64,000 bases of DNA from the NCBI GenBank assembly GCA_038030265.1, contig CM075941.1, positions 14,198,001-14,262,000 of the forward strand, in the 5' to 3' direction. The notes below the pieces were generated by a model that worked only from the letters and a program-made list of their open reading frames with translations, did not search any database and had not been told where the DNA came from. The first letter of the stretch is position 1. Each line of letters begins with the position of its first letter. Source of the DNA: Corythucha ciliata. Its lineage: Eukaryota > Arthropoda > Insecta > Hemiptera > Tingidae. Made by a program: the position numbers and the translations under genes. Shown here piece by piece: positions 16,001 through 61,633 of the stretch.

Positions 16001-16101
16001 GTTCCTGCCGAGGCAATTAAATAAATGAAATGAACTCTATGTCTTCCGGACGACGATGGAAGGGCATAGCCAAATAAGATTTGAGTTTGAGAAAAAATGA
16101 G

Positions 16102-16162
16102 CTCCCCGGCGGGATTTGAACCCGCGACCTCTAGATTACTACAGTCCAGCACGCTGCCAATT
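16102..16162 (-). tRNA. tRNA-like sequence, 5' part lost (likely pseudogene)
   Basis: On the minus strand it reads GGCAGCGTGCTGGACTG, then a two-base insertion in the anticodon loop, then a T arm with GGGTTCAAATCCCGCC and a 3' acceptor strand CGGGGAG. The 5' acceptor strand and D arm are missing, so it should not yield a tRNA. Confidence 0.55.
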
Positions 16163-16343
16163 GCAATTTATTCAATTAAATACCAGCGACAACATATTTC
16201 CTCGTCTATCGAACTACATCTATGATATTATAACATTTGCGTGGTTTACCTTTGTCGCAAGGAGAAACGCTTAGCGTTTCGGGAAACAATGACCCTGGTT
16301 GGAGTTCGGGTTAGCTGATTCCTCGCAGTACGACTGCGAAAAG

Positions 16344-16416
16344 CGTCACCGCGGCGCTATTGACAGCGTGCTGGACAAGTAATTCGGAGGTAGTGAGTTC
16401 AAATCCCGCCGGGGAG
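16344..16416 (+). tRNA. Degenerate tRNA-like sequence, anticodon position reads AGT
   Basis: The acceptor strands GTCACCG and CGGGGAG pair with a mismatch, the D arm is GCGGCGCTATTGACAGCGT and the T arm GTGAGTTCAAATCCCGC. The loop is CAAGTAA; base 33 is A, not the required T, so this is a decayed copy. A TTTTTT run follows, typical of pol III termination. Confidence 0.5.
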
Positions 16417-16604
16417 CCCATTTTTTCTCGAAAATAGGAATCGCGTTTCTGAAGATATCAATTTCATTTCATTTATTTAATTAAATCTCGGCGACAACAT
16501 CTTTTCTCATCTATCGACCTATAAAGAGGAAAGTTTGTGGATAAAACTCAAAAAAGAAGAAAGAGCCAACCAGATTTATGGTAGAACCCCTCTCATGATA
16601 AATT

Positions 16605-16620
16605 CCTAGATCCGCCACTG
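16605..16620 (-). other. Terminal motif of a family A element
   Basis: Read in reverse this is CAGTGGCGGATCTAGG. The same terminus, with minor changes, closes the family A copies at 22973-22988 and 36125-36140. CAGNGG starts are common in hAT-like and some other cut-and-paste transposons; the superfamily is not proved here. Confidence 0.6.
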
Positions 16621-19600
16621 AACCGCACCCTGCTCGAATGAAACCAATTTGAAAAAAAACGTCATGTATTCTTCTGAACCAATTTCGCTTAGTTAATAAG
16701 TAGCTCGAACAATGAATTTAGCAAGGTTCACGCATTTGGCCCACTTGGGTCAATGATCATTCACGAATTGTTTATACGAAGAGGATTCGTAGAAATTCGT
16801 AAAACGTAGAAAACTGTCAATAAATTATGACGACTTCTTTCATAAATAACAGGCACGTCGTAAGACGCTTTCTATATAGGGCGGTAGGTCTATTTTTTGT
16901 GTTTCATTCTATCCTACAAAAGAGGTGTTCTAAGAGAGAGGATTAAAACTCTCCGGCCCAGGGTAAAGGTGAGCCGGATGGAAAGGGTGTTAAAGAAAGG
17001 GTGGTGGGGGTGGGGGTTGCGAGAATGGCCCTAATATGTGGCAACGGGAGAGAAACTCCACAACTCCGCTCACGTTCCAGACAACTCAGCAGGAATTCAG
17101 ATATATCTTTTTCCCCTTCGCTTTTTGGGTTTTCACCGTCTATATACCAACCACCGCAGGTTTCATCCACACGCACACACCACAAAGACAACAATTTACC
17201 CCACTGCTGAGTTGTACCGAACGGCTCTTTTATTAAGATAATAAAATAAATGAGCCCCGCTCACCCAACTTGTCAATCAATTTCCAAGAGTGGCATTAAA
17301 AAGTGGTTTTGAAACTTTTCAGTCAAAAAAAGGATTAACTCATTAAGAGTTTCGCTTCTATACAACTATATTCACAGTGTAATGCAGCTTGGTGTTATGA
17401 CAATCCAGGGGGGGAGGGGAAGATAAAAATCCGTTTTTAAAGCTAAAAGAAGTTATGGCTGTATTTTCTTCGGCGGGAATGGATTTTTGAATATTTGATG
17501 GAATTCGCCGGAAGATGTAAGCCTGATGGGAAGAAGAGGAGAAAAAAAACGAGGGCAGAGGTATTAAAGCTTCTCGGAGAACGTTTAAATAAACAATAGC
17601 ATCACCCCACCCCACCCAACCCTCAATCACCCGGCTACACCTTGTCTCGTGCCATATTATGTCTTGAAGTTTCCTACTTTGAAAAGGCAGTGAGAGAGAA
17701 AAAGAAAAAAAAAGGAACGAGACTCCTTTAAATCTGATCAATAAAACAACGTCGTAACACGAACACCTCTCACCCTGAGACCACTTAGGCGAATTGACGG
17801 GCTTACATCGCGGAAATAACAAGGTAATTCCACCGTTGAAGAGGAACAAAAAAAAAAGAACTTTTCAAAGACGGAATAATTCCACGCCGGTGCGGTGGAG
17901 AGTGCAAGGGAGTAAAGCTTTAAACTCCTCGATTAGGTTTTGAGTACTTAGGCTCACCCCTCCCCTCCTCCTCAACTACTAGGCTCTTTTGTTCGAAGTT
18001 TTCATAAAGTTTATCCTCCACCCATCCACCACCCCCTCTAAACCACGCCTTTTCTATTGTTAAAAGTCGCACGGGTGACAAGGGCTAGTGATTGGATGGG
18101 AGAGAGATCTGCAAATTCAGTAATGACTTAGATTGTAGTCGAAATGTTCTTGGGTGGGGGGGGGGAGGTGGATTGAGAACTTAGAATTAGAGAGCGTTTG
18201 CCTTTCCTCTCATTAAATTTGTCTAGAGAAGGGAAAAAGGTTCTCTCGGTGGAAAAACTTTAAGACCGGGTTGGGGGGGGGGGGGTAAAAGAGAGTTTTT
18301 TTCAAGGAAAAAGCGTTGTGTTCGGAAAAGCGCGTGCAGTGCACTTGAGAAACTCGGTGAGTTGTTGTTGTTGGTAGTGGTAGTGGGTTTGGGGGCTGAG
18401 AAAATTCTTCCATAAATAAAATGTGCGCTCAACCCTACAGATTTATTGTGAAACGAAATTCGCTTTTTTTTTACACTTTCATATATCTTCAATAATGTCA
18501 AATCATTGCCTTAACTGTGGAAGAAAAGTTCAAGCGAGCTCTTTGAAGACTCAAGTATAGCAATTCTCGATATTTTTGCCGTGATTAATTCTCGTATTTC
18601 TATTGAAAATACTAGTCACGTGGAGAGACGATGGGTGAATTGGATGGGAGTGGTGGGTGATTCGTTTCAAAGGAATAAATTAAAGCAGATTTTCGGAGTA
18701 ATACCTCTCACAAAAAGGGGTCGAAATTAAATGATGTCACGGTGCGAGGTCAGAAATGGTAGTGAGGTGGGGGGGGGGGATATTCATTGTTGCGAAAAAT
18801 TAAGAAAGTCTTTGAACTCTTCAAAGTCGGTCATCTTTCATTCACGTTTTTTTGTCCACCGACTCTTTCCAATTTCATTTCAATTTTATACCGCGCGACT
18901 CCGTCTTTTTCAAAAAGCCTTGGCCGTTTTGTTTTTAATTAAATTTTAAAAGGCGAGGTCGAGTGATATTCGTGATGGAACAGGACGCTTTTAATTTTCC
19001 AAGGTTTCCAGTAAGTTGAAAAGGTTGGCGTTAGAACTATACTGAAGGAAACCAAAGTGTTACCCTTTAGACGACTGGGAATTTCGTTTAAAGCCCCTCC
19101 CTTGCGTCAGTATACTTAATTACCTCGACGAATTCTCCTCGGCTCACAAAGTTTAATATTTGGAACAGAAATAAAACTTTATTGCGTCATTTTGTGCTAT
19201 ACAGGGGGAATTGTTTCAATTGTCTTTCATCCCTTAGTGTATACCTACGCTCTATAGCGCCACTACTATAGTAAGGCAATTCCGTCGCCCGGTTAGTGTG
19301 TTTTTTCCCCATTCTCCGCTACTTTTATCTGATCCGAACAGGTTTTTTCGGTCGGGCGGGGGGGGGGGGGGCGAGACAACGTGCTTTAATCCACTTTCCA
19401 AAGTCATCGGGTAAACTTTCTGGCCATGAGCCACCAAACGTTTATTAAGATGCGGATGGTAGTTCACAATTGGGCAGCTTAAACAAAGATCCGTATAGTC
19501 CGAGCGAAAAGCTCATGGGATCGGTGAAAGTAAATTTCAAGAGGTTTGGAAGGCATAAACGACCCCCCCCCCCTCCTTCGATTATTAGAAGTTCCTTCCC

Positions 19601-19680
19601 TCTAAATAATAAGGGAAGAAGTTTGCTATTTCAGGCTAAACAAAAAGATTTCTCCAGAATATGACTTCTTAAGACAATAA
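16621..19680. other. Intergenic, no gene recognised; right part lies in the duplicated segment
   Basis: G- and C-runs of 8-13 bases are frequent (18157, 18273, 18770, 19360, 19562). The 163-residue open frame at 17358-17849 is low-complexity and repeats at 24214-24705 only because the segment is duplicated. No known domain seen. Confidence 0.5.
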
Positions 19681-19689
19681 TGATCTTAT

Positions 19690-20290
19690 TTTTATCGGTG
19701 AAGTAGCGTTTCTAACCCATCTTAGCGATTTTTCTCAATTTTTGCTGCAAATCAGAGAATTTTCACCTTTTCAGCAGCGAATTAGCACTTTTGCTCACTT
19801 TGATCTTCAAATTAGCGTTTATCTTAGCTTCAGTTATCTTAACTTCAGCCGCGCTGATTCGTTATTTTTCTCAATATTGGCCGCAAATTAGCCGTGTTTG
19901 AATTTTTGTCTTGCATTACCCATTTTTTTTTCACTTATTAGCTTTATGGATTACCATTTTTTCTCAGGTTTGGGCACGATGTTGCATTCAGAGACCTTGG
20001 ATTTGTGTTATCCTAAATTTTGGCCGCGAATCACCGTTTTACTAAAATTTAGTCGTGAATTAGTGTTTTTCTCAATTTAGCCGTGAATTATACGATTTTT
20101 TCATTTGTATGCGAATTAACGTCTAGACCTTATCCGCGAATGAATTAGCGTTTTCCCATACTTTTTCATTTTCTCTGTTAGCCCCGAATTAGTGTTTTTT
20201 GTTTCTTTCTTTCTTAAATTTCAGTCGTGATTTTTTTCTCAATTTTATAGCCTTGAATTAGCGTTTTATGCCTTTTTGGCTTATTATTTC
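19690..20290 (+). repeat. Family A array, plus orientation (copy A)
   Basis: Units such as TTAGCGATTTTTCTCAATTTTTGCTGC and GCGAATTAGCACTTTTGCTC. It faces the minus-oriented array at 20930-22988 across a ~400-bp non-repeat stretch. The equivalent in copy B is at about 26545-27145. Confidence 0.8.
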
Positions 20291-20698
20291 TCAATAATAA
20301 GTCTTTGTAGTCGTATCGCAAAACAATTTTTTTGACCCCCCCTCAAAATTTGTAGTTTTACGTTTCAAAGTGCGTAGAATCCATATCTGCAATAAAAAAA
20401 AATGTCCTTCCGCCGTCCGGGCCATATCTTGCCCTAGGATTGCTCGAAAAAACTCGTTCTTTCGCACATAGACTCCATTTGGGGTCTAGTTGGTCCTAAC
20501 ATCTGATCAATTTGATCAAATAACTCCCTGGGGTTTTATGGGCCAAAAGCGGGTCCAAAATGGGGATTTTCAAAGGATTTGGGATCATAGGGGTGTGGGG
20601 TGTCGATTTTCATGTAATTTCAAGCCGGATTTGACTACATCGATGAATATTAAACCCACAGTCGAAATAATAAGGCATTGTTCGATAATTCGCAGCGT

Positions 20699-20878
20699 TT
20701 TCATTTGTATCCGCGAATTAACGTCTAGACCTTATCCGCGAATGAATTAGTGTTTTCCCATACTTTTTCATTTTCTCTGTTAGCCCCGAATTAGTGTTTT
20801 TGTTTCTTTCTTCCTTAAATTTCAGTCGTGATTCTTTTCTTAATTTTATAGCCTTGAATTAGCGGTTTATGCCTTTTT
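20699..20878 (+). repeat. ~180-bp array segment duplicated only in copy A
   Basis: This block repeats the array segment at about 20092-20275, from TCATTTGTAT.CGAATTAACG to AGCCTTGAATTAGCG, with a few differences. Copy B goes straight from CGCAGCGTTTT to AAAGTCTTTTTT at about 27550, so the insertion is specific to copy A. Confidence 0.85.
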
Positions 20879-20929
20879 AAAGTCTTTTTTTGCCTTTTGC
20901 TTGAAAAAAAAAAAAAAAAAAAAACCGGG

Positions 20930-22988
20930 GCTGAAGGTAAGCGAGGAAAAACGCTAATTTGCTGCTAAATTTAAGAAAAACGGCTAATTTGGGAAGACAT
21001 TTGATAAAATTGGCTATTTCACAGAAAATTGAGAAAATGGCAACCTCGTGGCCAATTAGGAAAGAGCGCTAATTTACGGCATTCAGTGACAAGGAGGGAG
21101 TATGGATTTATAGATTTCATATCGTCCATTAGCAGCAAATATTGAGAAAACGCGCTCGCTTAAATTATGAAAAATATATCAATTCGAGATATCTGAAGGT
21201 AACTTCGCGGAAAAAACAGAAAAAACTACTCTAACTTCGAGTTTCGGCGGATAAAATTGAGAAGGAGTTCTAATGTGCTAATCTTGAGATAAGTACACGG
21301 CAAAAAGTTGGCGCCTGATTCAAATTAAAAAAAAACAAAAAAAACACTAATTTGACGCTAAAAATTGAGAAAAACACTTAACATGTGACGTCCATGCGAA
21401 AGAACGCTTTTTCTCAATTTCAGTCCCGTTGTTTTTCGAGAAACCACGAATTGACATTTTTAAGAATACTAGTTGTGCCTGCTAGCCGTACTAAGCGGTG
21501 AGCTGCTGCTTTTTCTCAATTTTATAGCGGCGAATTAGCGCTTTTTCTGAATCATCGTCACATCGCTCATTCGTAACTAAAATGAAGAAAGACGCCAATG
21601 GACCATTTTCCAACATGAAAAACCCGCTGTTTTGGCTATGAAACCTTGTAGTACGTGGTATATTAATGTTTTAAAGGCAAATATTTGCCTTGAATTAGAA
21701 GCACCAATCTTGAAATCAAAGATTAAAACTGGCAGGATTTTGAGCTTTCCCGTTTGAAAGTGACAGAACTAGATATAATAAATGTTTTCTCCGTTGTTAT
21801 CATGCGTTTTATAAAAATATTGAACGATATTTTGTGGTTAGTTTAATACTTTAGCCTCTGTTTACAATGTTGTGACGTCACATCCCTGTTACTTTATTTT
21901 CCAATTTTTTGTATGGGACTGGGGCAAAACAGTTTCAAAGTGTTTTTTCGTGATCATTTCATCCTAACAACTCATTTTTCTAACAATTCATTTTTATTTT
22001 TCTATTTTTTCCGGCTAAAATTGAGAAATTGTGCTAATTCGCGGCAAAAGTAGAGAAAAAGTGGCAATGTGATGCTAAAATTTATAAAAACTCTAATTCA
22101 TGGATGCATGTGTACATGGAGCCAAAACCCCGCTAACTCTTGCCTGTTATTGGTACCATACGCTCATTTGCAGTTCAAATAGAGACAAATATCAAATTCG
22201 TGGCAAAAAGCGCTAAAAAACGCAAAAGACGCTAATTCACGGATCTAGGGATAATGCTCTAATTTCCAGCTAAGATTGAGAATCGCGGTGTTTCGCTGCT
22301 GAAATTAAGAAATGAGCCACCGCTAAAATCAGGAAAATAATTCGCAGGTAAAATTAGAAATAGCGCTATGTGAAGCTAAAATGGAAGAAAACACTAATTA
22401 ACGGATTTTTGTGAAAATTCTCCAATTCGGAGTTGAAATTGAGTAAAAGCACTGATTTCTTGGTGAAGTTTAGAAATAATTTGCAGCTAGAATGAAATAA
22501 TAAAAATAAAAAACCGCTTATTTCGGATCAACTCGAAAAAATTCGCTAATTAGTGACTAAAATGGAGATAAAACGCCTATTCGCATCACTAAGAAGTGAA
22601 GGAAAACGCTAAAATTTGAAAATACGTCAACTCACGGGTGAAACTGAGACAAACCGCTAATGCCCGTCTAAAATGTAGATAAAGAGCTCAATCGCAGCTA
22701 AAATTGAGAAAATTCGCGGCTAAAGTGAACAAGAATGCGCCCATTCGCTGCAGAAACGGTGAAAAACGGTAAATAGCGGATCCATTTGAGAAAATCCGCT
22801 AATGCACGGCTAAAATTGAGGAAAAGCGGTAATTCACGGCTAAAATTGATGAATAATTCGCAACTGAAATTGAGACAACGTATTTTACGGTTGCTTAGAG
22901 GCAAGTTTGTGACTGAAACTCAGAAAGAAAGAGTAAATCAGATTTACGGTAGAAGCCCACCCAAGATGAAATCCTTGATCCACCACTG
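20930..22988 (-). repeat. Family A element, minus orientation, most complete copy
   Basis: An ordered series of ~30-bp degenerate units runs to the terminus CCTTGATCCACCACTG at 22973-22988. A possible opposite end is CAGTGACAAGGAGGGAGTATGGAT near 21085. It includes the diagnostic monomer AATTCGAGATATCTGAAGGTAACTTCGCGG-type block (21180-21210), the reverse of the CCTTCAGAA monomer of plus arrays. A ~450-bp AT-rich insertion without array pattern lies at about 21590-22010. No coding capacity seen. Confidence 0.8.
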
Positions 22989-23035: not shown

Positions 23036-23535
23036 NNNNNNNNNNNNNNNNNNNNNNNNNNNNNNNNNNNNNNNNNNNNNNNNNNNNNNNNNNNNNNNNN
23101 NNNNNNNNNNNNNNNNNNNNNNNNNNNNNNNNNNNNNNNNNNNNNNNNNNNNNNNNNNNNNNNNNNNNNNNNNNNNNNNNNNNNNNNNNNNNNNNNNNNN
23201 NNNNNNNNNNNNNNNNNNNNNNNNNNNNNNNNNNNNNNNNNNNNNNNNNNNNNNNNNNNNNNNNNNNNNNNNNNNNNNNNNNNNNNNNNNNNNNNNNNNN
23301 NNNNNNNNNNNNNNNNNNNNNNNNNNNNNNNNNNNNNNNNNNNNNNNNNNNNNNNNNNNNNNNNNNNNNNNNNNNNNNNNNNNNNNNNNNNNNNNNNNNN
23401 NNNNNNNNNNNNNNNNNNNNNNNNNNNNNNNNNNNNNNNNNNNNNNNNNNNNNNNNNNNNNNNNNNNNNNNNNNNNNNNNNNNNNNNNNNNNNNNNNNNN
23501 NNNNNNNNNNNNNNNNNNNNNNNNNNNNNNNNNNN
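23036..23535. other. Scaffold gap, 500 N
   Basis: Exactly 500 N, a conventional placeholder for a gap of unknown length. Copy A of the duplication ends flush with it. Confidence 1.
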
Positions 23536-23948: not shown

Positions 23949-26900
23949 GAATTCAGATATATCTTTTTCCCCTTCGCTTTTTGGGTTTTCACCGTCTATA
24001 TACCAACCACCGCAGGTTTCATCCACACGCACACACCACAAAGACAACAATTTACCCCACTGCTGAGTTGTACCGAACGGCTCTTTTATTAAGATAATAA
24101 AATAAATGAGCCCCGCTCACCCAACTTGTCAATCAATTTCCAAGAGTGGCCTTAAAAAGTGGTTTTGAAACTTTTCAGTCAAAAAAAGGATTAACTCATT
24201 AAGAGTTTCGCTTCTATACAACTATATTCACAGTGTAATGCAGCTTGGTGTTATGACAATCCAGGGGGGGAGGGGAAGATAAAAATCCGTTTTTAAAGCT
24301 AAAAGAAGTTATGGCTGTATTTTCTTCGGCGGGAATGGATTTTTGAATATTTGATGGAATTCGCCGGAAGATGTAAGCCTGATGGGAAGAAGAGGAGAAA
24401 AAAAACGAGGGCAGAGGTATTAAAGCTTCTCGGAGAACGTTTAAATAAACAATAGCATCACCCCACCCCACCCAACCCTCAATCACCCGGCTACACCTTG
24501 TCTCGTGCCATATTATGTCTTGAAGTTTCCTACTTTGAAAAGGCAGTGAGAGAGAAAAAGAAAAAAAAAGGAACGAGACTCCTTTAAATCTGATCAATAA
24601 AACAACGTCGTAACACGAACACCTCTCACCCTGAGACCACTTAGGCGAATTGACGGGCTTACATCGCGGAAATAACAAGGTAATTCCACCGTTGAAGAGG
24701 AACAAAAAAAAAAGAACTTTTCAAAGACGGAATAATTCCACGCCGGTGCGGTGGAGAGTGCAAGGGAGTAAAGCTTTAAACTCCTCGATTAGGTTTTGAG
24801 TACTTAGGCTCACCCCTCCCCTCCTCCTCAACTACTAGGCTCTTTTGTTCAAAGTTTTCATAAAGTTTATCCTCCGCCCATCCACCACCCCCTCTAAACC
24901 ACGCCTTTTCTATTGTTAAAAGTCGCACGGGTGACAAGGGCTAGTGATTGGATGGGAGAGAGATCTGCAAATTCAGTAATGACTTAGATTGTAGTCGAAA
25001 TGTTATTGGGAGAGGGGGGGGGTGGATTGAGAACTTAGAATTAGAGAGCGTTTGCCTTTCCTCTCATTAAATTTGTCTAGAGAAGGGAAAAAGGTTCTCT
25101 CGGTGGAAAAACTTTAAGACCGGATTGGGGGGGGGGGGGGTAAAAGAGAGTTTTTTTCAAGGAAAAAGCGTTGTGTTCGGAAAAGCGCGTGCAGTGCACT
25201 TGAGAAACTCGGTGAGTTGTTGTTGTTGGTAGTGGTAGTGGGTTTGGGGGCTGAGAAAATTCTTCCATAAATAAAATGTGCGCTCAACCCTACAGATTTA
25301 TTGTGAAACGAAATTCGCTTTTTTTTTACACTTTCATATATCTTCAATAATGTCAAATCATTGCCTTAACTGTGGAAGAAAAGTTCAAGCGAGCTCTTTG
25401 AAGACTCAAGTATAGCAATTCTCGATATTTTTGCCGTGATTAATTCTCGTATTTCTATTGAAAATACTAGTCACGTGGAGAGACGATGGGTGAATTGGAT
25501 GGGAGTGGTGGGTGATTCGTTTCAAAGGAATAAATTAAAGCAGATTTTCGGAGTAATACCTCTCACAAAAAGGGGTCGAAATTAAATGATGTCACAGTGC
25601 GAGGTCAGAAATGGTAGTGAGGTGGGGGGGGGGGTATTCATTGTTGCGAAAAATTAAGAAAGTCTTTGAACTCTTCAAAGTCGGTCATCTTTCATTCACG
25701 TTTTTTTGTCCACCGACTCTTTCCAATTTCATTTCAATTTTATACAGCGCGACTCCGTCTTTTTCAAAAAGCCTTGGCCGTTTTGTTTTTAATTAAATTT
25801 TAAAAGGCGAGGTCGAGTGATATTCGTGATGGAACAGGACGCTTTTAATTTTCCAAGGTTTCCAGTAAGTTGAAAAGGTTGGCGTTAGAACTATACTGAA
25901 GGAAACCAAAGTGTTACCCTTTAGACGACTGGGAATTTCGTTTAAAGCCCCTCCCTTGCGTCAGTATACTTAATTACCTCGACGAATTCTCCTCGGCTCA
26001 CAAAGTTTAATATTTGGAACAGAAATAAAACTTTATTGCGTCATTTTGTGCTATACAGGGGGAATTGTTTCAATTGTCTTTCATCCCTTAGTGTATACCT
26101 ACGCTCTATAGCGCCACTACTATAGTAAGGCAATTCCGTCGCCCGGTTAGCGTGTTTTTTCCCCATTCTCCGCTACTTTTATCTGATCCGAACAGGTTTT
26201 TTCGGTCGGGCGGGGGGGGGGAGCGAGACAACGTGCTTTAATCCACTTTCCAAAGTCATCGGGTAAACTTTCTGGCCATGAGCCACCAAACGTTTATTAA
26301 GATGCGGATGGTAGTTCACAATTGGGCAGCTTAAACAAAGATCCGTATAGTCCGAGCGAAAAGCTCATGGGATCGGTGAAAGTAAATTTCAAGAGGTTTG
26401 GAAGGCATAAACGACCCCCCCCCCCCTCCTTCGATTATTAGAGGTTCCTTCCCTCTAAATAATAAGGGAAGAAGTTTGCTATTTCAGGCTAAACAAAAAG
26501 ATTTCTCCAGAATATGACGTCTTATGACAATAATGATCTTATTTTTAGCGGTGAAGTAGCGTTTCTAACCCATCTTAGCGATTTTTCTCAATTTTTGCTG
26601 CAAATCAGAGATTTTCCACCTTTTCAGCAGCGAATTAGCACTTTTGCTCACTTTGATCTTCAAATTAGCGTTTATCTTAGCTTCAGTTATCTTAACTTCA
26701 GCCGCGCTGATTCGTTATTTTTCTCAATATTGGCCGCAAATTAGCCGTGTTTGAATTTTTGTCTTGCATTACCCATTTTTTTTTCACTTATTAGCTTTAT
26801 GGATTACCATTTTTTCTCAGCTTTGGACCCGATGTTGCATTCAGAGACCTCGGATTTGTGTTATCCTAAATTTTGGCCGCGAATCACCGTTTTACTAAAA

Positions 26901-29291
26901 TTTAGTCGTGAATTAGTGTTTTTCTCAATTTAGCCGTGAATTATACGATTTTTTCATTTGTATGCGAATTAACGTCTAGACCTTATCCGCGAATGAATTA
27001 GTGTTTTCCCATACTTTTTCATTTTCTCTGTTAGCCCCGAATTAGTGTTTTTTGTTTCTTTCTTTCTTAAATTTCAGTCGTGATTTTTTTCTCAATTTTA
27101 TAGCCTTGAATTAGCGTTTTATGCCTTTTTGGCTTATTATTTCTCAATAATAAGTCTTTGTAATCGTATCGCAAAACAATTTTTTTGACCCCCCCTCAAA
27201 ATTTGTAGTTTTACGTTTCAAAGTGCGTAGAATCCATATCTGCAATAAAAAAAAAATGTCCGTCCGCCGTCCGGGCCATATCTTGCCCTAGGATTGCTCG
27301 AAAAAACTCGTTCTTTCGCACATAGACTCCATTTGGGGTCTAGTTGGTCCTAACATCTGATCAATTTGATCAAATAACTCCCTGGGGTTTTATGGGCCAA
27401 AATCGGGTCCAAAATGGGGATTTTCAAAGGATTTGGGATCATAGGGGTGTGGGGTGTCGATTTTCATGTAATTTCACGCCGGATTTTACTACATCCATGA
27501 ATAATAAACCTATAAACAGTCGAAATAATAAGGCATTGCTCGATAATTCGCAGCGTTTTAAAGTCTTTTTTTGTCTTTTTGTGCTTGCAAAAAAAAAAAC
27601 AAACAAAAACCGGGGCTAAAGGTTAGCGGCTAGAATGAGGAAAAACGCTAATTTGCTGCTAAATTTAAGAAAAACGGCTAATTTGGGAAGACATTTGATA
27701 AAATTGGCTATTTCACAGAAAATTGAGAAAATGGCAACCTCGTGGCCAATTAGGAAAGAGCGCTAATTTACGTCATTCAGCGACAGGGAGGGGGATATGG
27801 ATTTATAGATTTCATATCGTTCATTAGCAGCAAATATTGAGAAAACGCGCTCGTTTAAATTATGAAAAATATATCAATTCGAGATATCTGAAGGTTACTT
27901 CGCGGAAAAAACAGAAAAAACTAAGCTAACTTCGAGTTTCGGCGGATAAAATTGAGAAGGAGTTCTACTGTGCTAATCTTGAGATAAGTACGCGACAAAA
28001 AGTTGGCAAAAAACGCGCCGATTCGCCTGTTCGCGCCTGATTCAAAGTAAAAAAAAAAAAAAACACTAATTTGACGCTAAAAATTGAGAAAAACACTTAA
28101 CATGTGACGTCCATGCGAAAGAACGCTTTTTCTCAATTTCAGTCCCGTTGTTTCTCGAGAAACCACGAATTGACATTTTTAAGAATAATAGTTGTGCCTG
28201 CTAGCCGTACTAAGCGGTGAGCTGCTGCTTTTTCTCAATTTTATAGCGGCGAATTAGCGCTTTTTCTGAATGATCGTCACATCGCTCATTCGTAACTAAA
28301 ATGAAGAAAGACGCCAATGGACTATTTTCCAACATGGAAAACCCGCTGTTTTGGCTATGAAACCTTGTAGTACGTGGTATATTAATGTTTTAAAGGCAAA
28401 TATTTGCCTTGAATTAGAAGCACCAATCTTGAAATCAAAGATTAAAACTGGCAGGATTTTGAGCTTTCCCGTTTGAAAGTGACAGAACTAGTGGTAAATG
28501 TTTTCTCCGTTGTTATCATGCGTTTTATAAAAATATTGAACGATATTTTGTGGTTAGTTTAATACTTTAGCCTCTGTTTACAATGTTGTGACGTCACATC
28601 CCTGTTACTTTATTTTCCAATTTTTTGTATGGGACTGGGGCAAAACAGTTTCAAAGTGTTTTTTCGTGATCATTTCATCCCAACAACTCATTTTTCTAAC
28701 AATTAATTTTTATTTTTCTATTTTTTCCGGCTAAAATTGAGAAATTGTGCTAATTCGAGGCAAAAGTAGAGAAAAAGTGGCAATGTGATGCTAAAATTTA
28801 TGAAAACTCTAATTCATGGATGCATGTGTACATGGAGCCAAAACCCCGCTAACTCTTGCCTATTATTGGTTCCATACGCTCATTTGCAGTTCAAATAGAG
28901 ACAAATATCAAATTCGTGGCAAAAAGCGCTAAAAAACGCAAAAGACGCTAATTCACGGATCTAGGGATAATGCTCTAATTTCCAGCTAAGAATGAGAATC
29001 GCGGTGTTTCGCTGCTGAAATTAAGAAATGAGCCACGGCTAAAATCAGGAAAATAATTCGCAGGTAAAACTAGAAATAGCGCTATGTGAAGCTAAAATGG
29101 AGAAAAACACTAAGTCACGGATTTTTGTAAAAATCCTCCAATTCGGAGCTGAAATTGAGTAAAATCACTGATTTCTTGGTGAAGTTTAGAAATAATTTGC
29201 AGCTAGAATGAAATAATAAAAATAAAAAATCGCTTATTTGCGGATTAATTCGAAAAAATTCGCTAATTAGTGACTAAAATGGAGATAAAAC

Positions 29292-29598
29292 TGTGACCGT
29301 AACACGATCACGAACCCCCCCCCCCTCTCCAGGAGTATGTTCCATCCGCCCTTCCCATAAATCCCCCCCTCACCATTCGCTCTTTTGTGAGCCTGCGGAA
29401 AAAGGTGGAAGCTCTCCCGTCTCTCTCTCTCGGTCTGTTTTGTCGGAAGGACGTGTCGTGTGGACTTAAGCTCCTCCCGTTTGACTATACGTGCGAAGTG
29501 CCCTACTTCCGGACTTTCTTTTCGCCACGAAGATTCGCGCAGCCTCCTTCTCCTTCCTATTTTCCCTCCCCAATCAATTAGCGGACGGGAGTCTTGCA
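29292..29598 (+). repeat. 5' LTR of the Gypsy element
   Basis: It starts TGTGACC and ends CTTGCA. From about 29398 it matches the 3' LTR (GGTGGAAGCTCTCCC onward). The first ~100 bp, with a C-run near 29316, has no counterpart in the truncated 3' LTR. Confidence 0.85.
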
Positions 29599-29603
29599 AA
29601 TTT

Positions 29604-29615
29604 TGGCGCCCAAAC
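29604..29615 (+). promoter_or_regulatory. Primer-binding site, tRNA-Lys type
   Basis: TGGCGCCCAAAC begins 5 nt after the LTR end. TGGCGCC complements the 3' end of tRNA-Lys species used as primer by many LTR elements. Confidence 0.6.
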
Positions 29616-29904
29616 AAATTAATTACACATTCGAAACCCTCAGAACCCTAGAATTGTATAATTAACGTCCTCCCCCATCCCCCAATACCCTCTGCCATTA
29701 GTAGTTTTTTTTATTTATTTTTAACGAGTGTACCGACGAGGAAAGTTGTACCTTGCCCCTTTGGTTTCTAATCTTCCTGTAGAAGAAAGTTTTTTTTTCT
29801 TTTCTTTCCCTGGACTATTCTACCGAAATATTCCGTTTTATTTTATTTTATTTCCCTGCCGTTAGAATATTCCAGCGATCCCTGGACAACACGGATACCA
29901 CAAG

Positions 29905-30924
29905 ATGAGCAAGGAAGAGGAGAAAAATAAAAGCCCTGATGAAAACCTAAAGCAAAGTCAATGTTCAAATTGTCTCATCAAAATTATTTCCATTGATAAC
30001 CCGATTACGTGCTCAAAATGCGGAAGAATTCGGTGCGAGTCTTGCAGTTCCATCACCCACGTCAATTATAAAAAACTACCACTAGACCGAAAATCAAGAT
30101 TCATAAACTATTGCTGTTCCACCCCTCCCCTTTTTTCCAGCCTGAATCAAAAAATAACAGAGTTTCAAGTTCTGTTATCTCAACAACCAGAAATTATTCA
30201 ATCCCTTATCTCCCAAAATCCGACAACAGAGCAACTCCAAAAAAACTTTGAGAACCTTTCTTTAACCGTTAATAAAATCCTCGAAATATTGTCTAATAAA
30301 CAAATCACCGATAACCCCCCGCCATCCGAACCATCACAAACACGCCGTGAAACCCCCTACGAGAGCGACACCGTTGAAAAATTAAACCCCTCCGGTGAAA
30401 TTCTTCACCATCAAAAAATAATTCCAAAATTACCAAGTTCTCTTCAAGTCGACGAGACTGGAAAAGTAACCTTCAAGAGGCCCCCCACCCCACCGTCATT
30501 CGGCCAAAATAAATCCGTCCTCCCAGAAGATTTCAATAAAAAACTTCCAAAATATTTGCAAACGGCAATCAATCAAATTCCGACCTTGAAAACTAATAGT
30601 CTTAAATCCATTATTACGTTCCTACTTAAGTTGCAACAACTTGAAACAATATCCGGTCATTACTATCAGGAAGTCCTCATAAATGTAGCGATTCATCAAC
30701 AAAACGAATTCCTCCAAAGAATTGTTTTCACGAATAACGTCAAAACATTCATGACCCTGAGGAACATTATATTCACAGAACTCATTAACAATACCGCTAA
30801 GACGGAACTACAGACCTCTTACTTGTTTCGTAAACAGTACCAAAACGAATCCTTCCGAACATTCTCAGAAAATATCCGCCGCGTTAGCGACATTCTCCAA
30901 ACTCATATACCGAGAGTGAAATAA
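29905..30924 (+). pseudogene. Gag of the Gypsy element, with N-terminal cysteine-rich zinc finger
   Basis: The ATG at 29905 opens 339 residues. Residues 20-71 carry C20-x2-C23, C36-x2-C39, C44-x2-C47, H52 and C70, a PHD-like zinc-finger spacing that is unusual at the start of a Gag. A coiled-coil-like stretch follows (about 85-135), then a helical capsid-like region (about 205-335) ending ENIRRVSDILQ. The reading frame then shifts near 30915 by -1, continues to a stop at 31038, and the same frame goes on into the basic tail at 31041. Gag is therefore broken. PHD identity is inferred from cysteine spacing only. Confidence 0.75.
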
Positions 30925-31040
30925 TACAAATTATTGTCCACAATGCCAACCTCGCCACCAAAGGTAGCTTCTATTCCCTCCAGCCCCCGACTAATTTTAC
31001 CGAGCTCGATCAGTTCGTAAACTCAGTCGAGAAGATCTAA

Positions 31041-31556
31041 TTGAATTTTTCCCATGTAACCATTCCTAATAAACCAGCAAATCAGTACCAGCGCTACAAT
31101 AACTCATTTCCAAAATGGAACCCCCCAGATCACTACCCCAGCCATCAAACGGAAAAATCAAATAATTACTACCCAAACCATACTAAAAGTAAGCCTTCCC
31201 ACGAATATGCTTCTCACCAAAATAATAAATACAAACCCCCTCCCCCCCAGCCATTGCACCAAAACAAAAAACCTTTTCACAAACCAATGAGCCCCCACTA
31301 CCTAAATAGTGTCGGTAATAAGCCCCTCTACATAGATATGCACGGGAATTTCCATAATAAAGCCCTAAATATTTCCCCAAATAATAGTAAATCCTCAAGC
31401 AGAAAAAACAATAAAAACACCTCCCGCCCCAGTAGTCGATCCCCTTCACCCGTTCCTCACCCTACTAAGGGAATAACTAATCAAACTTATAAACACCCTC
31501 CCTCGCAAAATCAAAAAAACCCTTGCAGGGGGGCGAGGTACACTTGCACAAATTAG
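31041..31556 (+). pseudogene. C-terminal basic tail of Gag (nucleocapsid-like), no CCHC knuckle
   Basis: About 170 residues rich in Asn, Pro, His, Lys and Ser, in the frame that follows the gag shift. It presumably binds RNA as a nucleocapsid tail, but no CCHC zinc knuckle is present. It overlaps the protease frame by 34 nt and contains the slippery site. The first codon here follows a stop, so it is part of gag and not a separate gene. Confidence 0.6.
31514..31520 (+). promoter_or_regulatory. -1 ribosomal frameshift site A AAA AAC
   Basis: The heptamer is phased CA-A AAA AAC in the gag frame, exactly the X XXY YYZ form. A -1 slip leads directly into the protease frame (LQGGEVHLHKLD). The GC-rich sequence just after it (GCAGGGGGGCGAGG) could form a stimulatory structure. 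Confidence 0.72.
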
Positions 31557-32063
31557 ACAGCCTCCCCCCCAATCACGTCAAAATTACCCTCAACAATGGC
31601 CCAAAAGTAACGGTGCTACTCGACACAGGCGCTACTCGCTCCTTTGTAAGCGAGGAAACTGTAAAAAAACATTTTCCCAAAATTCTCCGTCGCCGCAAAA
31701 ATACCACGAACGTTCCATTGGCTGACAGTAAAACAATTACCATCAACCAAGCCATTAACCTAACCATCTCCCTAAATAATGAGCCCTGCACGCACAACTT
31801 ACTTATCGTGCCAGAACTCTCATCCGACGTAATACTCGGCCTCGACTACTTAAAAAGAGCCGACATCATCATCCACCCCGCGAACCACCAATATTACTTT
31901 GCCTCAAAACCCCGAGTCAAATACAACTTTCTAAGCCAAGTAGAAAACTCTACTATAGAACATAATAAGCTACCTATCACCCCTTCCAGCTGCCCACGAA
32001 AAACACCGCCTATGCCTCGCTCCACAAAACGCACACCGGCCACATCTCCCCTTACAACGGCTA
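31520..32063 (+). CDS. Aspartic protease of the Gypsy element (pol N-terminus)
   Basis: The frame entered by the -1 slip encodes a retroviral-type aspartic protease. The active-site motif VLLDTGATRSFVS is followed by the second conserved block VILGLDYL, normal for the family. The enzyme would cut the Gag-Pol polyprotein in the virus-like particle. The frame stays open to the MULE insertion at 32064, where pol is interrupted; it resumes on the other side at about 33394. The 13-bp sequence duplicated by the MULE encodes the LTTA seen on both sides. Confidence 0.88.
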
Positions 32064-32313
32064 CTAACGAAAAGCGCCAATCCTGTTTTAATGATGGATG
32101 AAAAGCGCCAACAGGTTGACGTGAGAAGTTATGAAAAGCGCAAAGTAATGTACTCGAAAAACGCCAAGAAAAATACTCGAAAAGCGCCACAAAGACAGGT
32201 AGAAAAGAGAAACGCAATTGCACTGATTTGGTCATAAATTTATTGACACAACGAAGGAATTGAATAAAACGAATTGAATAAAATTCATAGTCAAAGTCGT
32301 CGGTCGTGCGAGT

Positions 32314-33051
32314 TTAAAGGACAACTTGTTTTCGTATGCCCACTTTCGTGATGTACTCCAAAGCGCTTAGTTTGCCTGAAACGTATTTCGCGTACAAACG
32401 TAAGATGGCACAATCCTTGCAAACTTGACGCTTACGTTTACGTGTTGGTTCAGCCGAATTCATTTTCACGTAAGTCTCGGATTGAAATTTGGCTAGACAA
32501 TCAATTACCTCGTGTATGGAGCAGTGAGGTGATTGAAATTGATCCTTGATATGCCTATGAAATGCCTCAGCTCCGTTAGTAGTCCTAGGGGCCTCAGTGA
32601 TTGGAGGGGAGGCCCATAATTGTGGGGGGAATGAACTTCGAGGACCGATATACGTTTCGGCGACATACTGAACGAATAGCCCCACTCTTTCATCGGGAGG
32701 TACTTCTTGTAATAAATCGAGAAAAGCTGATTCGACGGCTGACGAAAAGCTGATGACTTGGGACGGTCTCCTGTGCACCTCACCGGCAGCGCGCGCTTTG
32801 CATGAGTTCCTCACAATATGCCGCTCAACATAGGTATCGGTATTTCTGTCGTGATTATGATCGCCATCATGCTGTAATATCTGCGAATGCGCGCTGTTCG
32901 TAATAATTTTACTGGAACATAGTCTCTTCGTACATCGCCAGCACACCCTGCCGTCAACCGTTTCACGATATTTACGAAACACGAAATTGTTCAAAATGAT
33001 ACACGGCACACCTTTATTAGTGGACCCGACACGAAACGCGGTGGAGTTCAT
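32314..33051 (-). CDS. FLYWCH zinc-finger protein with MULE transposase C-terminus
   Basis: The first ATG at 33051 gives 245 residues; the open frame extends seven codons upstream without another ATG. Residues about 20-70 form a FLYWCH finger (FVFRKY, then W38-R-C40, C45 and H65-x-H67), a DNA-binding domain common at the N-terminus of MULE transposases and in domesticated derivatives. Residues about 158-185 (TNGAEAFHRH..IKDQF) match the conserved block after the catalytic domain of MULE transposases, where TN..E..H is typical. The intervening DDE region of about 200 residues is missing, so it cannot transpose by itself. The frame is intact. It might act as a binding-only repressor, but that is speculation. 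Confidence 0.82.
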   Translation of the reverse strand: MNSTAFRVGSTNKGVPCIILNNFVFRKYRETVDGRVCWRCTKRLCSSKIITNSAHSQILQHDGDHNHDRNTDTYVERHIVRNSCKARAAGEVHRRPSQVISFSSAVESAFLDLLQEVPPDERVGLFVQYVAETYIGPRSSFPPQLWASPPITEAPRTTNGAEAFHRHIKDQFQSPHCSIHEVIDCLAKFQSETYVKMNSAEPTRKRKRQVCKDCAILRLYAKYVSGKLSALEYITKVGIRKQVVL

Positions 33052-33148
33052 TGTGACGGCACTGAACTGCAAGGCCTACTGACAAACGCGACCAAACAAG
33101 ACTAAACAAATCCAACAAACGCAAAGCAAATCCAACGTAAGCAAATAA

Positions 33149-33248
33149 TGTATTTACAAGTCCACTGTTCAATCACTCGATTCTCCTTTGCCTCTGATTG
33201 TATTTACAAGTCCACTGTTCAATCACTCGATTCTCCTTTGCCTCTGAT
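33149..33248 (+). repeat. Exact 50-bp tandem duplication in the MULE
   Basis: Two adjacent copies of a 50-bp unit starting TGTATTTACAAGTCCACTG and ending CTTTGCCTCTGAT lie upstream of the MULE gene's start, on its 5' side. Confidence 0.9.
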
Positions 33249-33393
33249 TGCCTCGATCGTAATGGCGCTTCTAATACACCTGTACCAACAGCTCTTTGCG
33301 CTATTCATACACCTTACCTTGCCGACTTTTTTGGCGCTTTCAATGTGCATTCCGGCCCTGAAAGAAACAGATTGGCGCTTTTCAGTGGCACCG

Positions 33394-34140
33394 CTTACAA
33401 CTGCTAGTATTGCGTCATACTTCAAGGAAAAATACCCTACCGTCCTTACCGAAAACCTAGGTAAAACCCACCTTATGGAATATCACATTCATACCCGGTA
33501 TGATGCAAACTGGAATTTCAAACCCAAACTCTATCACTTAGCCCCGGACAAACTTCACACTCTCAGAAACGTACTTGACGACCTGTTAAAAAGGAAAGTA
33601 ATTTCCCCGGTCATCTCCTCCTTTGCCTCCCCATGTTTCTTAGTAAAAAAAAAACATGAACCCGTGAGTCAGCAACAACACCGCCTCGTTGTTGATTACA
33701 CCCATTTAAACAAGCAAATTTACCCTATTAAATACCACCTCCCGAGCGTCCAACAAGCCTTCTTTTACCTAAAGGACGCGAAGTTTTTCAGCTTAATCGA
33801 CCTAAAAAAGAGTTACCACCAAATACCATTAGACCTAGCTTCACGAAAATTAACCGCTTTATAACCCCATTCGGTACTTTCCAGTACAACACCCTCCCCT
33901 TCGGAATTTCCACAGGAGCTCAAATTCTGTCTGCGCTCCTGGACAGAATCCTGAGCGATCTTAAATTTAATGGGATATTTAATTTTATGGACGATATCCT
34001 TTTGTACTCAAAGACAAAGCAAGAACATTTACGCCTTCTAAATACCCTTTTTCCCCGTTTAAAATATGCCAACCTAACAGTAAATCCAGATAAAATAAAA
34101 TTCATGACAGAAGAAATTTCTTATTTGGGACATATTATTA
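33394..34140 (+). pseudogene. Reverse transcriptase of the Gypsy element, frameshifted
   Basis: The frame from 33394 encodes the RT N-terminus: HRLVVDYTHLNKQ and the motif A region SLIDLKKSYHQIPL, ending in a stop at 33864. A shift near 33840 moves the rest to another frame: RFITPFGTFQYNTLPFGISTGAQ, then FMDDILLYS, the YMDD-type catalytic box, then YLGHIIS. The shift and the MULE upstream make it non-functional. The motifs place it in the Ty3/Gypsy group. Confidence 0.9.
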
Positions 34141-50760: not shown

Positions 50761-50764
50761 AAAA

Positions 50765-58146: not shown

Positions 58147-60373
58147 TTAAATAAAAAGGGCAAATACGTGAGTAGACAATTCATTCATGCACACGATGCT
58201 GCTGAGTCGTAGGGGAGGGCAACTGCCCACCCCTGCCCCCTTTTGGCTATGCCTGTGAAAAGATGAAACGCTCCATAACGTGCCAATAATGTAGACGAAC
58301 CGTAATTTGCGGCTAAAATTGAGACATTTTTCACACGTTTTAAGTCTAAACGTTTTTCCGGTTGATTAGGGACTGTTACCAACTCTCGAACTACATACCA
58401 ACTCCTATACCCTACAACCCAGAAGATCTTCACGGTAATGCGGTACTTTATTTTCACTTATGAAGAAGGAAGCTGTGAAATTTGCGCAAGCGATGATGAC
58501 GACGCTTTTTTCCCGCGGAACTTTGGAAAAAGTGATCATGCGAAGGGACGGGGTGTGGGGATGGAGAAGAAAATGCGGGCACCCTCATTGTTCGCTTATT
58601 TGTGAAAATAAACCTTCAGGTGGGTAAACCTGTACACACACAAAGCGCTTTGTGCGAGAGGGTGAGAAAAAGATAATAACATAATTTACGGAAGGTTATC
58701 TTTTTTTTTATACGTTATTATTGCGTAGTTGTGGCTTTACGTATAGCAGTGAAGTGCTTGGGGAAGGGGTTGTGGTGTACGGGGGATTTATTCTTCGACT
58801 ATTTTTTCATCCCCCCTTCCCCTCCACCACAGAACCCCTTGGAAATAATGCGAAAAGTTAACACACGCGGTGTCATATTTACCTTGCAGGTATACGCTTC
58901 CCATTATTTCTTATTTTATACGTCCTTAGTGGCTATAAAAAAAGTTTCTCTTTCCTCTTTCTACATAACAGCGAATTTTAATTCCGTAGCCTGGTTGCTT
59001 TAGGTTTGGGGGTGATATTTTGTTATTTTCCGACTTAAAACACTTAATTTTACCGCCTTAGCACAATTATTGCAACATTATTTTCACCGTGGAGCACCGT
59101 TACTCCATTAATACCCGATGTTGTCCAAATACACACACAAAAAAAGAAGAGGGTAAATCGTTAATATTTTTGTTTTATTTATTTAAGGGCGAGCCTCCTA
59201 ACTTTGCTGAGCGTAAACAGCTCTCCAGAGTCACGTATTTCCTTGGAGCTAAGACGGAGGATATATTATTTAGAGAAATAAAAAAGTAACTAAAAAGGGC
59301 CTCGTGGGAGAGCCCTTAGGAGCCGAATTTTCCCGAATCGGATTATAGTTGGGTGGTGGGTGGATGGATTGGCCAGGGATGAAGGGGGATGTAGAGTTTT
59401 GAAATCGAATATTTCAACAACTACACGCTCATTGCAGCGTTGGAACACAGTAAGAAGAAAAAGAAGAAAAAACAGCTTGAACGACGCTGATTAAATGAAT
59501 TCTTCACGAAAGGGAAGAAGCTAAATAAAAACGGATCTTGTACCCTTTTTTTGTCGAGTACAAAGTACTTTTGGGTGTCGACTTAAGCAGAAATACTAAC
59601 TTTAAACAGCCCTCTGTTCTCTTTTCCCGAAGAAAAACATTTGCCAGTATAATTTCCGTGGAGTATCCTTCTTCCTTTTCCCTTTTTCTACAAGTGTACC
59701 CTGCCCTGAAGGGCTGAAAAAAAAAAGAAGAGTTTTGAGCACTTTCTTTTACATAATGCAAACTGCGGAGATGCGAAAAGAAGAGAATCTGTGTGATGGG
59801 GCCGGTGTGCATTACCGGCTTTTTATTAAATAATAGGGCCATCCAGTTCACTTAGAAGAACATCCACCCTTGCGCTCTTAGCATTTATAATGCAAGTGAT
59901 TCTTTTTTTCTTCTTCGACCCCCCCCCCCTCACAATTCTTTCAGCTTTTTTTATTCACTCCTTGAACTCTATTTCGTTACCCTCCACCACGTCACTCGTT
60001 CAAAAGGATTGTTTGACTCTTCAAGGCCCTACTGTCAGTTTCTTCGTTGAATTGGCCAAAAAAAAAAAAACAAAAAAAAACAAAAAAAAAAAAAACGTTA
60101 TGGAAAAGGTGTTTTACGAGCTTCAGACGTTGCGCCACGTTGATAATCGACTGCCCTGGGAAAGTCGCATCAATTCCTCGTTTCGCGATGCAGTGGTGCC
60201 GAAACGATTTCAATGAGGTGTAGCCGAACTCTGGAACATGGACACCAACAAGTGATGCTCCAATGGGTGGCAGGGGAGGTCGTTCCCCTTGAATTGAAAA
60301 AAAAAAAAAATGTTTTTGTTCCAATTTTAGTCGCTAGTTAGCCCTTTTTTCCCAATTTGATTCGTGAATTAGC
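58147..60373. other. Intergenic, no gene recognised
   Basis: TGCCCACCCCTGCC..TTTTGGCTATGCCTGTG at 58224-58257 resembles a transposon terminus. A-rich tracts lie at about 60060-60094 and 60297-60310. Open frames at 58731, 59504 and 59890 are low-complexity. Family A units reappear just before 60374. Confidence 0.45.
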
Positions 60374-60948
60374 GTGAGTTTCAACAGTGAACCAATCAGC
60401 GACTTTTGCCACTTGTCCTTGGGTGTTATTGCAACTGGCGAAGCTACTTACGAAGTCAACGTATCTATCGGGACATGTCTCTGCAAGGATGGGACGAATG
60501 GGGCATTTGGCACGCACCAGGCTCTTGTTCATTCGAAATTTAGTGGTGCCTTCCCGAATGCCCCAGTTGTAACAGCCCAGGATTGTTACAAATTGGCCAA
60601 ACTTGCATACGGTGATGAGTGTCCAGAGCCAGCTTTCTACCTCGGAATGAAGGACGACGAACGAATGACGGATACGTGGAACCTGAACTCAAATGGTAAT
60701 GTCCAGCAGAATAATTATGAGAGTGTCATTACCACACAAGACGCGGGCCCAGTAAGATCAGCGACCGATGAGTTGAGTGAGGCAAGTAAAATCGCCATTT
60801 TAGATGATTTTAAATCGGAATTGGAAATATGGATATAATGAATAAATCTGTCGCCGGTATTTTAATTAATAAATTAATTAGACTGATATTATCCGGACGA
60901 CGATGGGAGGGCATAGCCCAACACGATTCGAGTTTCGAGAAAAAATGG

Positions 60949-61020
60949 CTCCCCGGCGAGGTTTGAACCCGCAACCTCTGGATTACCAGTCCAGCACGCT
61001 GCCATTTGCGCCACGGAGAC
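60949..61020 (-). tRNA. tRNA-like sequence, anticodon position GGT (Thr), left arm
   Basis: Folds as a cloverleaf: acceptor GTCTCCG/CGGGGAG with a G-G mismatch at 1-72, anticodon stem CTGGA/TCCAG perfect, loop CTGGTAA. The B box GGTTCAAACCT deviates slightly in the T stem. A TTTTTT follows. Resembles animal tRNA-Arg(TCT) in the D arm but not in the anticodon. Confidence 0.6.
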
Positions 61021-61132
61021 GCCTATGGGAGTCGTACTCCGAGGGATAAGCTAAGCCGAACCCCACCCAGGTCCATTGTTTCTCGAAACTGTAGGCGCTT
61101 CTCCTGATCGGTAAACCACGCCGATAAACCAC

Positions 61133-61204
61133 GTCTCCGTGGCGCAAATGGCAGCGTGCTGGACTGGTAATCTAGAGGTTGCGGGTTCAAATCCCGCCGG
61201 AGAG
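61133..61204 (+). tRNA. tRNA-like sequence, anticodon position GGT (Thr), right arm
   Basis: Acceptor GTCTCCG/CGGAGAG (G-G at 1-72), D arm with A box TGGCGCAAATGG, anticodon loop CTGGTAA, perfect B box GGTTCAAATCC, and a T-run terminator CCATTTTTTC. Pol III transcription is plausible. GGT-anticodon tRNA-Thr is essentially absent from animal nuclear genomes, which use AGT, so this is more likely a SINE-type head than a working tRNA. Confidence 0.65.
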
Positions 61205-61633
61205 CCATTTTTTCTCGAAATTCGAATCGTGTTGGGCTATGCCCTTCCATCGTCGTCCGGATAATATCAGTCTAATTAATTTATCAATTAAGAATTGGAA
61301 ATACTCTGTTCAATTTCGGCTGATGAGCCAAATTGTATTCATTACCTCAAGAGCTGTACCAAGTCTTTAAAAAGACTAAGAACAGGCACCAGTGTAGCTG
61401 GGGCAACGCTGAGGTTTTCACAAGCCCTGCGCCAGCACTCCAGTAGACGGGGTAAGATAGCTTGCCAACCCACCTCTGTTTCGCGCCGAAGGGGAGGATC
61501 ATCTAGAGGGAGCGCAAGACTTACACCAGGCAGGCGACCAAGCCAGGGTCATGCTGCCCCCACCAAACCAAAGCGACGACGGGTGTTGGGTGACAGTATG
61601 AACAACAACGTAGCCCATGTCAAAAAACATTAA

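Follow-up and report, generated by a model that had tools for sequence, protein, structure and literature searches.

Two inverted copies of a tRNA-bearing repeat in the window

The window is a stretch of 64,000 nucleotides of Corythucha ciliata (Hemiptera, Tingidae; assembly GCA_038030265.1, contig CM075941.1, positions 14,198,001 to 14,262,000 of the forward strand) and lies in C5 of the 400.9-Mb, 57-contig assembly. It contains two copies of a short mobile element with inverted arms and tRNA-like sequences, at 16001-16525 (copy 1) and 60830-61291 (copy 2). Copy 2 consists of two inverted arms (60862-61021 and 61132-61291) of 160 nt each that are 96% complementary and lie 110 nt apart, and it is flanked by a perfect 12-bp direct repeat, GAATTGGAAATA (Table 1). 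Each arm holds a tRNA-Thr(GGT) called by ARAGORN, one on either strand and directed outward, and both score above the Rfam tRNA gathering threshold. The original prediction, made from the sequence of the window, described an inverted-arm mobile element with an outward-pointing tRNA-like gene in each arm and a 12-bp target duplication, and for copy 2 this description is confirmed.

Copy 1 had been predicted to be a second copy of the same design. Its plan is indeed that of copy 2 in degenerate form, and both arms map to the same repeat unit; no tRNA is called in either arm, whether by ARAGORN or by Rfam at its gathering threshold, and a clear target duplication was not visible on inspection by eye. 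As predicted, the two centres are homologous to each other, because both are parts of one 322-bp unit; the centre lies in the left arm of copy 2 and in the right arm of copy 1. At E ≤ 1e-4, the two copies are the sole matches to this unit in the window.

The 322-bp unit and its genome-wide copies

A 462-base query gave at least 156 matches in the genome (the best 40 of 1503 candidates were scored), and copy 1 as query gave at least 133 (the best 40 of 1712 candidates were scored). A 20-base motif of the tail is present at 3659 genome sites with at most two mismatches, against 0 sites for the reversed control, which sets the element far from chance. The copies that were fetched share one building block, a 322-bp unit arrayed head to tail that is composed of a 5' region, a tRNA-Thr, a run of six T (T6) and a tail. 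In sense order, the unit reads TCTAACAACATC.., centre, tRNA (~132-204), T6, GGGCTATGCCC, the stem strand GTCGTCCGG, an AT-rich loop, CCGGCGAC and ..ATATCCA. Motifs on the same strand are spaced by 322 in 17/20 cases. A 19-nt inverted repeat (unit 61-79 / 204-222) brackets the centre and the tRNA; 18/19 positions pair in the reference, 91.6% of cells are paired over 63 rows, and the repeat is unchanged between the reference and the diverged line. With its 322 bp, the unit leaves no room for an open reading frame (ORF) with reverse transcriptase (RT) plus GIY-YIG domains and is thus not an autonomous Penelope-like element (PLE).

Arm length ranges from a fraction of one unit to roughly nine units in tandem (L009). 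Of the 41 mapped loci (L008 and L009 overlap), 38 contain a head-to-head meeting of the two strands, and the remaining three, L013, L022 and L023, have one arm each. Two-arm copies consist of two tail-first stretches that are joined head to head at varying points.

For a sample chosen by sequence and not by structure, 100 exact motif sites were listed from C1 (1.28-16.66 Mb). These form 54 clusters, namely 26 with motifs on both strands, 26 with a single motif and 2 with motifs on the same strand. The mixed-strand clusters are head to head in 26/26 cases and tail to tail in none. We examined 37 of the 54 clusters (22/28 multi-motif and 15/26 single-motif) and found 26/37 to be two-armed (20/22 and 6/15, respectively). 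Two pairs of loci, L082/L094 and L089/L090, have a common junction and flank word and were treated as segmental duplicates, one of each being left out; the two-armed share is then 24/35. Scaled to all 54 clusters, about two thirds are two-armed. L075, which did not pass the identity filter, was left out of the end, junction and duplication counts. A prevalence of single-arm short interspersed elements (SINEs) with occasional inverted pairs, which would have contradicted the original prediction, was not found, and the chance meeting of two SINEs is ruled out by the exclusively head-to-head arrangement and by the single duplication around the pair.

Outer ends and target duplications

Both outer ends of the two-arm insertions generally fall at two fixed sites in the tail. 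Among 24 motif-picked two-arm loci, 19 have both ends at one of the two sites (the right end of L095 was placed by hand), and all 19 use each site once (p = 3.8e-6 against free equal choice). The other five have an end elsewhere; one of them, L106, runs off the fetched stretch. Site 1 is received by the left target side in 10 and by the right in 9 insertions of this C1 sample. In the query-selected sample, 27/29 two-arm loci are asymmetric with one end per site, and five more have an end elsewhere. Over all samples, 46/48 two-arm insertions that end at the two sites use one of each.

When duplications were trimmed, 40/42 two-arm insertions with a common flank word of ≥ 10 bases had one end per site at a median spacing of 38, the exceptions being L004 and L062. 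Site 1 then corresponds to unit 282-290 (37/40 at 284-288) and site 2 to unit 316-337 (34/40 at 322-326). In a single-sequence fold, site 1 sits in the loop of a GTCGtCCGG/CCGGCGAC stem and site 2 about 20 nt past this stem.

A common flank word of ≥ 10 bases, with mode 12, was found in 46/73 mapped loci (one of 74 loci was not mapped and is absent from the comparison) and in 4/600 mismatched-flank controls. Two-arm loci with both ends at the sites have such a word in 40/48 cases, one-arm loci in 3/13 (p = 8.7e-5). In the 23 insertions with a word of exactly 12 bases, A occupies positions -4 to -2 in 13, 17 and 15 cases and T occupies positions 10, 11 and 14 in 14, 14 and 15 cases; T is lower at 13 and 15 (9 and 8 cases). 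This composition appears roughly symmetric, as would be expected of a dimer that cuts both strands.

Head-to-head junctions and template uniformity

The unit positions that meet at 55 head-to-head junctions, a set that is partly query-selected, vary widely. The arms overlap by 0-5 bases in 33/55 junctions, are separated by 1-46 unmatched bases in 14/55, and overlap by 12-47 bases in 8/55, several of these at internal palindromes such as 61-79/204-222. Such a pattern would fit the end joining of two cDNAs. The junction peak at unit 61-90 was considered as a mark of the cDNA 5' end (transcription start) and dropped, as the set is partly query-selected and internal palindromes blur the alignment ends. 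According to the original prediction, the dimer moves as one unit. This claim fails: the varying junctions and the unequal ends contradict a dimer that is a fixed mobile unit or a miniature inverted-repeat transposable element (MITE), and arms extend to about nine units.

Units diverge by 0.36% within the same arm, by 0.8% between opposite arms and by 2.5% between loci (148 segments, 69 loci). Uniformity within insertions would follow from a single circular or multimeric RNA or from a uniform source array.

The tRNA-like module

ARAGORN called 149 Thr-GGT, 12 Thr-AGT and 7 other tRNAs over 93 loci, with at least one call in 83. AGT, an anticodon of the eukaryotic Thr isoacceptors, stands in the majority line built from 15 diverged copies, and GGT in the young reference copy. 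The majority line and the reference copy show 0 differences over 76 positions at 61-79 and 204-260 and nine over 124 positions at 80-203. Pairing in the acceptor stem reaches 78%, with G-G as the first pair in 59/63. Each of the T6 columns (207-212) has T in 61 or 62 of 62 letters. One of these T is kept although the flanking repeat has a C opposite it, which suggests that the T-run itself is under selection. Covariation in the tRNA and the flanking stems was rejected as weak support, since pair 113-123 (GC 48, CG 8, CT 5, GT 1) is the sole pair that changes on both sides. The structure given by an automatic consensus fold of the copies was judged untrustworthy.

Penelope-like elements of the same genome

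PLEs are described in the literature as follows. A PLE of Anolis cuts and extends both strands with a preference for ATT, and its reverse transcription begins at two internal sites, the interval between which is the 'tail' (PMC11167929). It is the first PLE active in vitro, and what follows reverse transcription still awaits validation (PMC11167929). Rotifer Penelope copies have inverted head-to-head pLTRs with an optional 31-bp tail at one of them and target site duplications of 8-10 bp (PMC3846280). The target composition of the tRNA unit, A-rich before and T-rich late in and after the duplication, would be compatible with 5'-ATT-3' cleavage of both strands as by the Anolis PLE.

The genome of C. 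ciliata carries elements with RT and GIY-YIG domains. PLE family A (L073) has an open frame of 789 codons with 43% identity over 98% to P0011, an uncharacterised protein of Anolis carolinensis; the best public relative listed has 46%, and identity is at most 52% among the 120 of 563 matches listed. The family probably belongs to the Penelope/Poseidon clade. Families A, A2 (L072) and B have hammerhead core motifs near their ends. As a positive control, both ends were fetched of six head-to-head pairs of family A. One end per site was found in 5/6 pairs (149-156 and 183-184 in the end fragment), with flank words of 12-14 bases. By eye, L073 (AAATTAGAGTTT) and L055 (11/12, one mismatch) follow the same pattern, so that 7/8 pairs of family A obey the one-site-each rule of the tRNA unit. 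Single-sequence folds place stem-loops near the PLE ends, AAGCCA/TGGCTT around site 1 of family A and GUGGAG/CUCCAC in A2 and B, an arrangement similar to that of the unit. Unit copies are present in 4/6 PLE loci of 10 kb (L052, L053, L054 and L056), no more than a few kb away from pieces of PLE coding sequence, a count for which density was uncontrolled.

Some further observations were made on these loci. The A2 element (L072, C47) has two 798-codon frames head to head in a 99.3% palindrome (451-5598), with hammerhead motifs near both ends. A further repeat adjoins units in two PLE loci (L053 5353-5671 and L052 4382-4650). L029 (C1:437177-440407), on a chromosome-size contig, contains a 626-codon GIY-YIG ORF that by eye resembles bacterial uvrC, possibly an endosymbiont insertion or assembly contamination.

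A proposed model of two-sided target-primed reverse transcription

We consider it very likely that the repeat is a non-autonomous, tRNA-bearing SINE-like element that a putative PLE partner mobilises via two-sided target-primed reverse transcription. The mobile entity would be the 322-nt unit in the form of a multimeric or circular RNA; this unit runs from a 5' region through the tRNA-Thr-like gene and T6 to a 3' tail that contains the stem-loop. From the duplications and the target composition, we infer that the PLE protein would cut the two DNA strands with a stagger of about 12 bp at A/T-rich sites and leave 3' overhangs. Each 3' end would serve as primer on the unit RNA, at site 1 in the loop of the tail stem-loop for one end and at site 2, about 38 nt further downstream, for the other. 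Both cDNAs would extend inward by variable lengths that range from a fraction of a unit to many units. End joining, to which the variable junctions and their short overlaps or additional bases point, would connect the cDNAs head to head, and fill-in would yield the 12-bp duplication. One-arm copies may be attempts in which only one cDNA was kept. Our guess is that the tRNA-like part probably contributes a promoter for RNA polymerase III (Pol III) or a processing of the RNA in the manner of a tRNA. We favour the view that the inverted form is remade at each insertion from repeat-unit RNA.

We also lean, with less assurance, towards a new class of SINEs, that of tRNA-headed parasites of PLEs rather than of long interspersed elements (LINEs). 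In this class, the tRNA-like gene would replace the hammerhead of retrozymes and launch or process the multimeric RNA, and the PLE complex would start once from each of its two initiation sites, with a different site serving either side of the break, so that a complete insertion would be a head-to-head pair.

Several observations weigh against PLE-mediated mobilisation as set out above. L017 and L028, both query-selected, end twice at the same site, and 10/58 two-arm loci have an end elsewhere (including L106, which runs off the fetched stretch). L028 is a palindrome including its flanks, perhaps an inverted duplication or assembly artefact, and so is the sixth fetched pair of PLE family A (L108/L109); either a large inverted duplication or an assembly artefact could account for both palindromes with their host flanks. 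By eye, a clear duplication of 12 bp is missing from the A2 pair L072. The right tail of copy 1 does not fold into the tail stem. L091 and L104 have the same apparent junction, 204/61, inside the internal inverted repeat. Uniformity within insertions has exceptions, including L004, L015, L064, L066 and L106, and gene conversion could be a source of within-locus similarity. All loci were picked via the motif or via likeness to the query. BLASTn of the unit against the six PLE loci of 10 kb gave unit copies and short weak matches, with no PLE terminus that matches the unit tail, and L072 and L073 gave 0 matches to the unit. The unit also has no hammerhead core, as neither CTGANGA nor a relaxed CTGA..GAAA was found on either strand of the circular reference unit. 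Finally, site 1 is some 75 nt downstream of T6, and a terminated Pol III transcript would therefore miss the initiation sites; the working template is for this reason probably a read-through or Pol II RNA.

Alternative explanations and known systems

In LINE-1 twin priming, the inverted part begins at an internal, variable place. An ordinary tRNA SINE mobilised by a LINE, with copies that invert by this route, would account for the tRNA head, for duplications of about 12 bp and for junctions that resemble end joining. Here, however, the two outer ends map to fixed positions within one and the same 3' tail, two-arm copies form the majority of the clusters examined, and the one-site-each rule matches that of the PLE in the same genome; we regard this origin as very unlikely. 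Long inverted arms and a near-fixed duplication length are what a DNA element with terminal inverted repeats (a MITE or foldback element) would have if it had captured a tRNA gene and moved as an inverted dimer by cut and paste. Such an element is extremely improbable given that the ends are not equivalent, one being longer by a median of about 38 nt, that the inner junction differs between insertions, and that tandem 322-bp arrays and one-arm copies occur.

A further candidate is a diverged metazoan non-LTR retrozyme, with the same PLE-dependent cycle via circular RNA and a ribozyme that is of another class or too degenerate to be recognised. The unit is non-coding, tandem and a few hundred bp long and shares its genome with PLEs, of which retrozymes are proposed clients (PMC7229834, PMC7761336), and (near-)identical units occur within arrays of the tRNA element, e.g. 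in L016 and L009. An Rfam search of the unit gave no hammerhead; it also missed the hammerhead motif of PLE family A, so that its silence on the unit is uninformative and only the motif search counts. That search found no core, and a tRNA gene is not a retrozyme feature in the accessible text of either paper. We hold this explanation to be very unlikely. In the same texts, PLE help is only proposed for metazoan retrozymes, and the word 'inverted' has 0 occurrences in the main text of PMC7229834.

PLE-mediated mobilisation of a tRNA SINE was not seen among the entries listed by the literature searches, the coverage of which left out most subscription papers and all bioRxiv preprints. PLEs of the Penelope/Poseidon clade, as described in PMC11167929 and PMC3846280, resemble the tRNA element in several respects: units in full or partial tandem, copies inverted head to head, a one-sided tail of ~30-40 bp, an AT-rich target with a short duplication, and cutting and priming on both strands. 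The tRNA unit differs from them in its length of 322 bp, in having neither ORF nor hammerhead core, and in its tRNA-like gene; no match to its tail sequence was found in families A, A2 and B of this genome, and the mode of its duplications is 12 bp against 8-10 bp in rotifers. Metazoan retrozymes share the short non-coding tandem units and the co-resident PLEs suspected as helper (PMC7229834, PMC7761336), but are defined by a type I hammerhead, in place of which the unit has a tRNA. In Adineta vaga, a host gene (NRPS) has been moved in trans between pLTRs (PMC3846280), which is likewise a movement of non-PLE sequence, but one of gene capture and not of a multiplied short family.

Like tRNA-derived SINEs, the unit is short, has a tRNA-like module and a target duplication and lacks an ORF. 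It differs from them in that T6 precedes the 3' tail, which would leave the tail outside a terminated Pol III transcript. Twin of Culex is reportedly a dimeric tRNA SINE, and such SINE dimers are said to be direct, whereas those of the unit are inverted and would be made at insertion.

The tail-motif family, in which complete insertions often measure a few hundred bp, may offer a natural assay of PLE-type integration that reads the staggered cut, the site used on each side and the joining of the cDNAs. It would also illustrate a possible adaptation of a SINE-type parasite to an enzyme other than that of a LINE.

Features of the window

The features of both copies are collected in Table 1. By mapping of the unit onto the window, 60829-61124 corresponds to unit 1<-28 (98%), the bases at the junction of copy 2 (61125-61131) have no match to the unit, and 16165-16447 in copy 1 corresponds to unit 277->232 (78%).

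Table 1. Coordinates of the element copies and their parts in the window.
Feature	Position	Strand	Content or basis
Left target site duplication copy, 12 bp, GAATTGGAAATA	60818..60829	.	repeat analysis
Right target site duplication copy, 12 bp	61292..61303	.	repeat analysis
Copy 2 left arm, putatively one cDNA	60830..61131	-	unit from 3' end (site 2) via tail, tRNA and centre to ~unit 28
Copy 2 right arm, putatively the second cDNA	61132..61291	+	unit 131->290, 97%, ends at site 1
One-sided extension ('tail'), at this end only, between putative initiation sites 1 and 2	60830..60861	-	
tRNA-Thr(GGT)-like gene, left arm	60947..61020	-	ARAGORN, Rfam
tRNA-Thr(GGT)-like gene, right arm	61133..61206	+	ARAGORN, Rfam
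T6 directly 3' of left tRNA, possible Pol III terminator	60940..60945	-	sequence; kept in other copies
T6 directly 3' of right tRNA	61208..61213	+	sequence; kept in other copies
Stem GTCGtCCGG/CCGGCGAC around putative initiation site 1, 5' strand	60893..60901	-	sequence, fold
Same stem, 3' strand (CCGGCGAC)	60850..60857	-	sequence, fold
'Centre', 5' part of unit, in left arm	61021..61131	-	unit mapping
Copy 1 left arm, older subfamily	16015..16164	-	unit 288<-143, 85%
Copy 1 right arm, unit 277 via unit junction, centre, degenerate tRNA and tail	16165..16521	+	right limit by eye

For the ORF that adjoins copy 2, 0 homologues were found at E ≤ 0.001 among 23 candidates. Elsewhere, the window contains long direct repeats (17093-20701 vs 23949-27559 at 98.8% and 20875-22574 vs 27556-29291 at 94.8%), the regions of which span 17093-22574 and 23949-29291, and a 500-base run of N at 23036-23535. 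The stretch 29399-35669 resembles an LTR retrotransposon, with direct repeats of 168 bp (29399-29566 and 35502-35669, 98%) and ORFs that by eye are gag-, protease-, RT- and integrase-like; a FLYWCH zinc-finger ORF (32317-33075, - strand) lies within it.

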